This document shows positions 21,893-36,197 of a stretch of 64,000 nucleotides of DNA, in pieces. This DNA comes from Kordiimonas sp. SCSIO 12610. GTDB lineage: Bacteria > Pseudomonadota > Alphaproteobacteria > Sphingomonadales > Kordiimonadaceae. Both the position numbers and the translations under genes were made by a program. The notes under the pieces were generated by a model that was not told where the DNA came from, did not search any database, and was given only the letters and a program-made list of their open reading frames with translations. The stretch covers positions 2,415,001 through 2,479,000 of the forward strand of contig NZ_CP073747.1 of the NCBI RefSeq assembly GCF_024398015.1. The letters run 5' to 3'. Position 1 is the first letter of the stretch. Every line of letters starts with the position of its first letter.

Positions 21893-22915
<1,023 letters not shown>

Positions 22916-22992: not shown

Positions 22993-23514
22993 TTATAGAC
23001 CTTCGCCGCCTCTTGATAAGGCAACGGCACCGGTTCTAGCCGCTTCCACTAGACCTAAATCGCTCATTAATTCGATGAAAGCGTTAATTTTATCGCTCGA
23101 CCCTGTTAATTCAAAAACAAAGCTCTTCCGTGTGGAATCAACCACTCGTGCGCGAAATGCTTCCGCGAGGCGTAGTGCCTCCACACGCTTCTCGCCCTCA
23201 CCCGTCATTTTCACAAGCGCCAGCCCTCGGGAGACGAATGGGCCATCAATCGTCAGGTCTGCCACTTTGTGAACTGGGACCAAACGATCTAACTGAGCTT
23301 TAATCTGCTCGATGACCATATGTGTTCCCTTTGTCACAATCGTTATGCGCGATAATTCTTTACGCTCGTCAATGGAGGCGACGGTCAGGCTTTCAATATT
23401 ATAGCCTCGACCGGAAAATAAACCGATAACGCGCGCCAGAACGCCTGCTTCGTTATCAACCAGAACACTAATCGTGTGTTTTTTTATAGGGCCTTGATCT
23501 TTCATGGCATGCAT
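22993..23514 (-). CDS. ilvH: Acetolactate synthase small (regulatory) subunit
   Basis: Regulatory partner of IlvB that activates catalysis and confers valine feedback inhibition. The ATG at 23514 (173 residues) is preferred to a TTG at 23529; an ATG at 23505 is also possible. The N-terminal ACT domain starts HTISVLVDNEAGVLARVIGLFSGRGYNIESL, where the Gly and Asn of the valine site are present, and the C-terminal domain includes VEALRLAEAFRARVVD. It lies 17 bp after ilvB. Confidence 0.94.
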   Translation of the reverse strand: MHAMKDQGPIKKHTISVLVDNEAGVLARVIGLFSGRGYNIESLTVASIDERKELSRITIVTKGTHMVIEQIKAQLDRLVPVHKVADLTIDGPFVSRGLALVKMTGEGEKRVEALRLAEAFRARVVDSTRKSFVFELTGSSDKINAFIELMSDLGLVEAARTGAVALSRGGEGL

Positions 23515-23531
23515 ACTCTTACTTAACAAAC

Positions 23532-25361
23532 CTATACAACCGCGAGCGCTTCATCGTCTCTTGGTTTGGTTTGAACATCACCAGCAAGCATCATTTCATT
23601 ATGTGCCGCACCAGCAGGAACCATCGGAAAACAGTTTTCTAACTTTGCGATATGACAGTCAACAATAACTGGACCATCATGATCTATCATTTCCTGAATT
23701 GTAGCATCCAATTGTGCAGGGTCATTAACCCGCAGTCCTTTCCAACCATAGGCTTCAGCAAGCGCAACAAAGTCAGGCAGAGCAGAGGAATAGCTTTCTG
23801 AATACCGGCTCTCATAGGTTAACTCCTGCCACTGTCGAACCATGCCCATAAATTCATTATTCATAATGAAAATCTTAACAGGCAACCGATATTGAACAGC
23901 AGTCGCAAGTTCCTGAATATTCATTTGAATAGACGCCTCACCAGCCACATCAATCACCAGACGATCGGGCTCAGCAAGCTGTGCCCCGATAGCCGCTGGT
24001 AAACCATATCCCATCGTTCCAAGGCCGCCAGATGTTAACCAACGATTTGGCTTCTCAAAGTCAAGATACTGAGCGGCCCACATCTGGTGCTGCCCCACCT
24101 CGGTAGAGATAATAGGATCATGGTCTTTAGTTAATGCATTCAAACGATCAAGTGCATATTGCGGCATAATAACGTCATCGCTATTTTCATAAGCAAGGCA
24201 TTTAATCGCGCGCCATTCGTCAATTTGCGCCCACCAATCGGTCAAATCAGGCTGTGTTTCAGCAAAATTATGCTCTTCCCAAAGCTCAATGAAACGAGAC
24301 AAGGTTCTACCGGCATCAGCCACTATCGGAACGTCAACAGAAACATTCTTATTGATAGATGACAGATCAATATCCACATGGATTTTCTTTGAGTCAGGGG
24401 AAAACGCATCGATACGGCCAGTTACCCGGTCGTCAAACCGTGCACCAATCGCAAGCATAACATCACAGTCGTGCATCGCATGATTAGCTTCAAAGGTACC
24501 ATGCATACCAAGCATGCCCAAAAACTGTTTATCACTTGCTGGAAATGCCCCTAATCCCATCAATGTGTTTGTAACAGGCATGCCAGTCATTTTCGCAAAC
24601 TTCGTCAACAGTTCGGAAGCTTCAGGGCCGGCATTAATAATACCACCGCCCGCATATATAATTGGCCTTTCTGCCTTTGAAAGCAGTTCAATCGCTTCAT
24701 TAAGGGCGCTTTCCGTTCCGTCCAAAATTGGCTTATAGGTTTTGTGTTCAACAGGAATGTTTGGCTGATAAGTGGCCTTTTCAACCTGAACGTCCTTTGG
24801 CAAATCAATAACCACAGGCCCCGGCCTGCCGCTCGTTGCCACATAAAACGCTTCTTTTAAAACGCAGGAAACTTTAGCTGTATCCTTCACCAGATAATTA
24901 TGCTTGGTGCACGGGCGCGTAATCCCAACAGTATCCGCCTCTTGAAAGGCATCATTGCCGATTAAATGCCTTGCAACCTGTCCGGTTAGGCAAACGATGG
25001 GGATAGAATCCAACATTGCATCCGTCAGCCCCGTTACGACGTTGGTAGCCCCAGGGCCGGATGTCACAAGAACAACACCTGGTTTACCGGTAGAGCGTGC
25101 GTACCCTTCCGCAGCATGAGCGGCAGCCTGCTCGTGGCGCACAAGAACATGCTTGATTTTTTCTTGCTTAAAAATTTCATCGTAAATAGGCAGAACGGCG
25201 CCGCCTGGATAGCCAAAGACGACCTCCACGCCCAATTCAGTTAACGTTTGAATAATGATCTCCGCGCCGCTTAACTCCTGAATGTCAGATTGTGTTTCTG
25301 AGCCATCAGGTCCTTCATCTAATTTTGCAGCGTCTGAATTCAAAGTCTGAATTGCTGACAT
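23532..25361 (-). CDS. ilvB: Acetolactate synthase large (catalytic) subunit
   Basis: Thiamine-diphosphate enzyme that condenses pyruvate with pyruvate or 2-oxobutyrate, the first common step of valine and isoleucine synthesis. In 609 residues are the catalytic Glu region [38 protein letters not shown], the FAD-binding middle domain with [11 protein letters not shown], and the ThDP/Mg motif around [20 protein letters not shown] (GD of the usual GDG is changed to GE: DVAGEAS). The N-terminal 25 residues are an acidic extension. AGGA precedes the ATG. First gene of the operon, preceded by a candidate attenuator. Confidence 0.95.
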
Positions 25362-25396: not shown

Positions 25397-25446
25397 AAAA
25401 CACCCCGTTTACACAAGTGGGGGCGCACTAGGCGCCCCCAGGGGTG
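25397..25446 (-). promoter_or_regulatory. ilvB leader: nested hairpin with small ORF
   Basis: On the minus strand an inner 9-bp stem TGGGGGCGC/GCGCCCCCA (25440-25418) sits inside an outer stem CACCCC/GGGGTG (25446-25441 with 25406-25401) followed by TTTT (25400-25397), a terminator-like shape 36 bp before ilvB. A 21-codon ORF runs from ATG 25493 to TAG 25428; the stop codon falls in the hairpin loop. The peptide (MLEASRPMKF then PTVTRPTPGGA) is not rich in Ile, Val or Leu. A palindrome AGCATCGATGCT covers the ORF start. Attenuation is inferred from the layout. Confidence 0.5.
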
Positions 25447-25527
25447 GGTCTCGTCACAGTTGGAAACTTCATTGGGCGTGAAGCTTCCAGCATCGATGCT
25501 AGGGCTGGCTAAGCACCGATAAAAGTG

Positions 25528-25556
25528 ACAATATTGTACATAAATTACTCAGTCAA
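25528..25556 (-). promoter_or_regulatory. Candidate ilvB promoter
   Basis: On the minus strand, TTGACT (25556-25551) and TATTGT (25533-25528) are separated by 17 bp. Start of transcription near 25521 would give a 160-nt leader holding the small ORF and nested hairpin before ilvB. Confidence 0.5.
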
Positions 25557-35811: not shown

Positions 35812-35859
35812 ATTATTCGCGAAAATACTTTAATTTCATATCAGAATTTCTTATATGAG

Positions 35860-35943
35860 AGGTGCTGGTTTTCCAGCTATGGCGATAAACGGCGCAGTAA
35901 GTAAATAAGACGGACCCGGGGGCGGTACCCGGCACCTCCACCA
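35860..35943 (+). ncRNA. ssrA: Two-piece tmRNA, acceptor piece
   Basis: Alphaproteobacterial permuted ssrA places the 3' part first. This piece contains a stem GCTGG-TTTT-CCAGC (35864-35877), a T-arm-like stem CCGGG/CCCGG around loop GGCGGTA, and the acceptor strand CACCTCC followed by ACCA, so CCA is encoded (ends 35943). CACCTCC pairs over seven positions, one G-U, with GGGGGTG at the start of the coding piece. The 5' boundary is approximate. The T loop lacks the usual TTCRA sequence. Confidence 0.85.
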
Positions 35944-35972
35944 TAAAGAACCTACCTGTTTAGGGTTCTTTA
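35944..35972 (+). other. tmRNA intervening segment hairpin
   Basis: TAAAGAACC (35944-35952) and GGTTCTTTA (35964-35972) form a perfect 9-bp hairpin that joins the acceptor and coding pieces in the precursor and would be removed in maturation. Confidence 0.75.
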
Positions 35973-35976
35973 TGAT

Positions 35977-36172
35977 GGGGGTGAAATAGGATCGACGTGT
36001 ATTGAACAGTGTTAGCTTTTCGCTCGGGATGGTACCGCCGCGATGGACCAAATTTTTATAAATGCAAACGACAATGACGTCGAGTTCGCTGTTGCAGCGT
36101 AAGCTGTTCCAGTAAACACATTTATCAATTCCTGAGGATTGACGTCTTCAGGTGGGGGTTGGTCCACCTAGC
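35977..36172 (+). ncRNA. ssrA: Two-piece tmRNA, coding piece with ANDNDVEFAVAA tag
   Basis: Starts with GGGGGTGAAATAGGATCGACG, the conserved tmRNA 5' end. The tag reading frame at 36064-36102 gives ANDNDVEFAVAA and TAA; with the alanine carried by the RNA the appended tag is AANDNDVEFAVAA, close to known alphaproteobacterial tags and ending in the ClpX-recognised Ala-Ala. Downstream stems CCTGAGGA/TCTTCAGG (36131-36152) and GGTGG/CCACC (36151-36168) form the pseudoknot region. The 3' end is approximate. Trans-translation rescues stalled ribosomes and tags products for ClpXP, for which SspB is encoded 1.6 kb away. Confidence 0.9.
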
Positions 36173-36197
36173 AACAGAACGGACCATTTATTTAAAT

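Follow-up and report, generated by a model that had tools for sequence, protein, structure and literature searches.

To our knowledge, none of the validated riboswitch classes is specific for leucine, isoleucine or valine. Sensing of branched-chain amino acids has been raised for the livJ motif, as speculation only in the available text of that report (PMC11109978). The riboswitch-like motifs ilvB-II, ilvB-OMG and ilvB, found in Corynebacterium, in various phyla and in Leptospira, encode peptides rich in branched-chain residues, and in-frame start and stop codons are present in all ilvB-II and in all but two of 41 ilvB-OMG examples (PMC10272879). In Caulobacter, the ilvBN leader has tandem Ile and Val codons (PMC4117421). 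As far as the available text of these sources goes, the published ilvB and related motifs either are assigned or proposed as upstream open reading frame (uORF) attenuators or belong to different lineages or different genes (PMC10272879, PMC11109978, PMC8632094, PMC1273637).

The ilvBNC leader of Kordiimonas

The leader described here lies in a window of 64,000 nucleotides from Kordiimonas sp. SCSIO 12610 (family Kordiimonadaceae). According to the list of open reading frames, the minus strand carries miaA, the leader, ilvB, ilvN and ilvC in this order; these names were assigned from the protein sequences. A first-pass annotation had read the leader as a promoter, a 21-codon ORF, a palindrome over the ORF start, nested stems and a final TTTT. 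All of these features exist at the positions given, on the minus strand, but the list lacked two covarying hairpins (P1 and P2) and a near-invariant linker, which together with a third hairpin (P3), an A/U tail and a G-run make up the element (Table 1). We conclude that the ilvBNC transcript is predicted to begin with a conserved structured RNA, and from this structure and conservation we infer a function. The leader strand folds at −56.8 kcal/mol, against −43.1 ± 3.6 kcal/mol for shuffled sequences (z = −3.8), a value reached by 0 of 200 shuffles.

Table 1. Genes, promoter and leader elements of the ilvBNC locus in the window
Feature	Coordinates	Strand	Basis
ilvC	21893-22912	−	after ilvN
ilvN	22993-23529	−	next after ilvB
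ilvB, acetolactate synthase large subunit	23532..25361	−	ORF list and relatives
TTTT after outer stem	25400-25397	−	sequence
G-run GGGGTG, pairing with linker CACCCC as outer stem P4	25401..25406	−	positional enrichment, pairing probability
A/U-rich tail 3′ of P3, ACTTGTGTAAAC in the window	25407..25418	−	alignment
Hairpin P3 (inner stem), invariant arms GGGGGCGC / GCGCCCCC, variable loop N5-8	25419..25439	−	identical in 22/22
Linker CTGTGACGAGACCCACCCC, near-invariant	25441..25459	−	22-leader alignment
Outer-stem CACCCC arm	25446-25441	−	within linker
Hairpin P2, conserved loop (A)GCCCA(A)	25461..25489	−	covariation
Hairpin P1, conserved loop GCCAGCC(C/T), with the transcript predicted to begin at or near its first base	25492..25520	−	covariation, loop conservation
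21-codon ORF ATG...TAG, peptide MLEASRPMKFPTVTRPTPGGA, judged not functional	25493..25428	−	start in 1/22 leaders
Palindrome AGCATCGATGCT over ORF start	25500-25489	−	sequence
Predicted sigma-70-type promoter of ilvBNC, TTGACT-17-TATTGT	25528..25556	−	consensus scan

The predicted promoter matches the consensus at 9 of 12 positions, and a scan of the region returned two sites, one of them on the opposite strand, compared with 0.7 ± 0.9 in shuffled sequences. Its first hexamer is well conserved, with TTGAC(T/C) at the corresponding place in all 22 leaders compared. Assuming a 17-nt spacer, the second hexamer starts with TA in every leader and ends with T in seven of them, the remaining 15 having a poor −10 hexamer that lacks the final T. 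With the same spacer, the predicted transcript start coincides with the first base of P1 or lies at most about three bases from it in 22/22 leaders, and an alternative TACAAT reading shifts it about five bases upstream. Under either reading, the transcribed stretch before P1 is too short to encode a peptide. By eye, the promoter spacer (25533-25556) is conserved as well, reading TTGACYGAGTAAT in most family members. This conservation exceeds what sigma-70 needs, and a regulator may possibly bind there. Elsewhere in the window, a permuted alphaproteobacterial tmRNA gene of ordinary type occupies 35825-36188.

Conservation and distribution of the element

A total of 28 loci matched the linker, and 22 leaders were kept for all counts. 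Three loci (L062, L072 and L073) were dropped because their linker had four mismatches and was taken as a chance match, and three others (L031, L032 and L034) were regarded as second copies of L001, L016 and L025. Across the 22 leaders, P1 shows changes on both sides in 6 of its 8 modelled pairs with 94.3% of cells paired, and P2 in all 7 of its modelled pairs with 96.8% of cells paired. The covariation score is 0.454, compared with 0.234 ± 0.014 for shuffles, which ignore the relatedness of the leaders; sliding the partners gave no more than 0.134. Changes on both sides were counted in 83 cells, against 28.7. The weakest of the five covariation measures, the count of further pair types, gives 31 against 27.6 and was reached by 21 of 500 shuffles. 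In our reading of the alignment, a portion of P1 was wrongly placed by MAFFT in a single subclade, so that covariation in P1 is probably underestimated; alignment A2, in turn, was fitted to the structural model and is biased towards it. The optimum single-sequence fold with 30 nt of downstream sequence retains both P1 and P2 in 15/22 leaders.

While the arms of P1 and P2 change, their loops stay similar across the family (GCCAGCC(C/T) and AGCCCAA, respectively), the motif being largely gone from the P1 loop of L027 and from the P2 loop of L025. Among the last 18 columns of the linker, 16 are invariant and two have one exception each, and the first letter of the linker deviates in three leaders. 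The arms of P3 are identical throughout. P3 and a small GUG/CAC pairing within the linker never vary, so neither provides covariation evidence. What is looked for in a riboswitch, a conserved structured 5′ leader domain with covarying stems and conserved letters in loops and linker, was thus found. By eye, four leaders (L005, L017, L022 and L027) carry a second, partly decayed P3 hairpin with an A/U tail shortly downstream, which resembles the outcome of a tandem duplication.

A covariance-model search found the full-length element at ilvB in 22 of the 29 Kordiimonadaceae genomes, with scores of 96-131 bits, and no further strong copy in any of the 29. These 22 genomes are also the ones that contain the exact P3 pattern, each of them a single time and within the element. 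A role of P3 as an all-purpose terminator was rejected, because its exact pattern is confined to this leader. The order sample (296 genomes, including the 29 of the family) yielded no element outside Kordiimonadaceae, and the class sample (385 genomes) yielded it in the Kordiimonas genome itself only, both at stricter filters that lose weak matches. Among the seven family genomes that lack the element, one (L012) gives a weak match (E = 0.0065), and its leader may be a diverged relative. The six others gave no convincing match. Hits in G010 (24.6 bits, on a contig other than that of ilvB) and G026 (19.8 bits) were taken as chance, and further short matches in these two genomes are the P3 palindrome on the opposite strand. 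In two element-less family leaders, L012 and L026, a C-run was seen by eye just 5′ of a GC hairpin that is followed by a real T run.

The linker letters, allowing at most one mismatch, were found in 12 of 398 genomes of the phylum, three of them in the family, and a backward control matched 13 genomes. Seven of the nine matches outside the family were rescored (all except G813 and G920) and gave 8.8-14.3 bits, compared with 96-131 bits in members; they were taken as chance, including an exact linker match in G835. Two loci of one genus in the same class, L160 and L161, both contain GTGTCGAGACCCACCCC and give weak full-length matches of 9.3 and 12.1 bits, which are probably due to chance or coding sequence.

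An ilvB tree of 27 of the 29 family genomes (all but G007 and G028), in which the outgroup rows group as a single clade, was used to place the carriers. The deepest split in the family has carriers on either side, two basal ones (G005 and G008) being long branches of unsure placement, and the carrier label needs four changes. The spread of carriers across the deepest split indicates that the element is probably ancestral in the family and was lost several times.

Small open reading frames and the 3′ part of the leader

The first-pass annotation had suggested control by termination or by the presence of a ribosome, as a ribosome stopping at the TAG of the 21-codon ORF would break the inner stem. 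The TAG does fall within the inner-hairpin loop, CTAGT, and runs of Ile, Val or Leu are missing from the encoded peptide. The description of an ilvB leader with nested stems in place of a classical run of control codons stands. Control by translation of the ORF is not supported. The ATG of this ORF is present only in the window genome, 1/22 leaders, and a shorter in-frame ATG in 2/22. When the leaders of the relatives were compared, the frame was disrupted while the stems and the linker were kept, an outcome that the annotation had itself named as speaking against its reading. The spacer between linker and P3 is 0, 1 or 2 nt long in 10, 3 and 9 members, respectively, and the P3 loop has 5-8 nt; with these lengths varying, no fixed reading frame runs through the leader. 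Within the linker and P3, variation is absent or almost absent at all three codon positions. Owing to the constant linker, a GTG is found in it in all 22 leaders, and its frame stops at differing places. As for the palindrome over the ORF start, it is present in the window and absent in a relative of the same genus, L002.

Other frames in the leader are not shared beyond the genus. An alternative ORF in the window, MYNIVTFIGA, contains Ile, Val and Ile and corresponds to MYNNVLCVDA in a genus mate; it is found in these 2/22 leaders and starts inside the predicted promoter. A search with a loose filter for branched-chain leader peptides found none conserved in the element leaders: an ORF passed in 4/22, none of them alike, and one of the 22 leaders also had a ribosome-binding-site match. 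Among element-less loci, of which 101 of 102 were read, the same loose filter was passed in 32, and in 15 of these with a ribosome-binding-site match. Clear leader peptides are found at other alphaproteobacterial ilvB loci, e.g. MITVLVVRDSGLI and MSVIVVIVR. At L127, L080, L083, L084, L086, L088, L090 and L098, all from other alphaproteobacteria, ilvB is preceded by a short ORF that has a ribosome-binding-site match and a high content of Ile, Leu and Val; these ORFs are likely to encode classical leader peptides. Translation of a small ORF as the means of control in the Kordiimonadaceae leader was rejected, as starts, frames and peptides are not conserved.

P3 forms with a probability of 0.99-1.00 in every member. 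It is followed by an A/U-rich tail, AAYTATTAT in many relatives. The tail scores only 1.75-3.34, a loose hairpin-plus-T filter accepts P3 in 4/22 leaders, and a consensus scan found no terminator-like site in the window. The weak U tract suggests that P3 may pause RNA polymerase rather than terminate transcription. The length of the tail is about right for a pause or a weak terminator. In L113, from G007, and in the same stretch in L149, a hairpin followed by nine T lies about 75 nt after P3 and before ilvB; as a terminator tail, this T run far surpasses the tail of P3.

The outer stem described in the first-pass annotation, CACCCC/GGGGTG, proved widespread, but the TTTT after it did not. A GGG is located 8-19 nt past P3 in 17/22 leaders, in a window chosen after the sequences had been viewed, compared with 4.0 ± 1.8 and a maximum of 11/22 in 2000 shuffles that ignore relatedness; in 12-nt bins of the same stretch, GGG occurs in 4 to 9 of the 22. 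The G-run pairs with the C-run of the linker with a probability of at least 0.5 in 15/22 leaders. As the linker hardly varies, covariation cannot test this pairing. Complementarity of linker and loops to the 60 nt after P3 was not above that of shuffles (outer-stem mean z = −0.34), and the higher values of the P3 arm derive, in our reading, partly from the second hairpin copies. An antiterminator in which the linker pairs with the G arm of P3 was considered and rejected: it has only four pairs with the consensus cut before the C arm, and it loses to the complete P3. Folding found no stable competing antiterminator.

Candidate mechanisms and comparison with known systems

We consider it most probable, at close to 60%, that the leader is a family-specific, translation-independent, cis-acting structured sensor of a metabolite or a protein that controls ilvBNC. 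In such a mechanism, the C-rich loops and the linker would form the recognition site of the signal, which may be a protein that binds RNA or a small molecule related to branched-chain amino acids. RNA polymerase would stall or be released at P3 and the A/U tail, and read-through into ilvB would depend on the partner of the linker, either the signal or the G-run. P3 and the G-run are therefore the candidates for an expression platform, although the U tract after P3 is poor. The narrower proposal of a riboswitch whose direct ligand is a branched-chain amino acid, or the keto acid from which it is made, must be regarded as doubtful.

The main rival is a small RNA made from the leader, with transcription ending at P3, with the loops and the linker acting as seeds on G-rich mRNAs, and with ilvB expressed by read-through. 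The leader has its own promoter, two 5′ hairpins, a GC hairpin and a conserved inter-hairpin segment, a build that is usual for small RNAs, and by eye no alignable sequence follows the tail and the G-run. This rival is nevertheless unlikely in view of the weak U tract of P3 and the constant position of the element in front of ilvB. An attenuator with a coding uORF, in the 21-codon frame or another, has precedent in the riboswitch-like ilvB motifs that were later assigned (ilvB-II) or proposed (ilvB-OMG and ilvB) as uORFs (PMC10272879), and the pair of MYN... peptides could be taken in its favour. It is very improbable here, given start codons in one leader for the 21-codon frame and in two for MYN..., the latter inside the predicted promoter, frames shifted by spacer and loop lengths, and unlike peptides in the four leaders that pass the branched-chain filter.

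An amino-acid operon would also be the right type of target for a tRNA-sensing leader akin to T-boxes. Among 32 distinct tRNAs of the same genome, ranked by complementarity to the P1 loop, Leu(UAG) is first and Val(UAC) fourth, and for the P2 loop Val(UAC) is third, as plain ranks without a significance test. No consistent preference for branched-chain tRNAs emerged over loops and linker, in a scan of tRNAs other than those for Ile; a conserved unpaired Ile, Leu or Val codon was absent by eye from the 22 leaders, and Rfam gave no T-box match. We therefore give this reading very little weight. Hardly more credible is a DNA site for a protein at P3 and the linker, with the hairpins incidental. 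P3 does form a perfect inverted repeat that never varies and is found once in each genome with the element, but its arms stand 5-8 nt apart, depending on the leader, and the covariation of P1 and P2 is that of an RNA. The structured sensor leader is thus preferred to each of these alternatives.

At the gathering score, Rfam 15 gave no match to the leader in the window or in 13 of the 22 member loci, and at E values up to 10 it gave two weak matches, both unrelated. Known Rfam RNAs, including the ppGpp riboswitch, other riboswitch classes and the T-box, were rejected as identities of the leader, since no covariance model matched these loci at that score. A literature search returned no paper on a Kordiimonadales riboswitch and, among the matches listed for Kordiimonas, RNA motif and ilvB, none on point by title, in a coverage that leaves out most subscription journals. 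We regard the leader as a new conserved structured RNA, so far found only in Kordiimonadaceae, for which an earlier description is possible.

Several described systems resemble the leader in part. As far as it is described, the ppGpp riboswitch exerts on ilv genes the kind of translation-independent RNA control that is proposed here; Rfam should contain this class, and the Kordiimonadaceae leader has no Rfam match at the gathering score. The serC, speF, suhB, ybhL and SAM-II elements are also small, lineage-specific structured leaders of alphaproteobacteria, and in the available text serC likewise starts beside its predicted promoter (PMC1273637). The same lack of an Rfam match at the gathering score sets the leader apart from these elements. 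The ilvD motif of Veillonella, as presented in the available text, is similarly a structured leader of a branched-chain gene and a weak riboswitch candidate, but it belongs to another gene and another phylum (PMC8632094).

The ilvB-II, ilvB-OMG and ilvB motifs are the most similar in position and form, being structured hairpin leaders with conserved letters before ilvB (PMC10272879, as far as available). In contrast to them, the Kordiimonadaceae leader has no conserved frame. Since earlier structured ilvB leaders turned out on closer look to be assigned or proposed uORF attenuators, this difference matters: with its clear covariation, near-invariant linker and lack of a conserved ORF, the element is a compact test case for whether RNA can sense branched-chain biosynthesis without the ribosome. 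The Caulobacter ilvBN attenuator, as far as its source is available, likewise represents control by an ilvB leader in an alphaproteobacterium (PMC4117421). Leader peptides of the Caulobacter type occur elsewhere in the class, whereas none is common to the Kordiimonadaceae element leaders. The element occupies the site that a leader peptide holds in some other alphaproteobacteria, which suggests that one mechanism was replaced by another behind a promoter that was kept.
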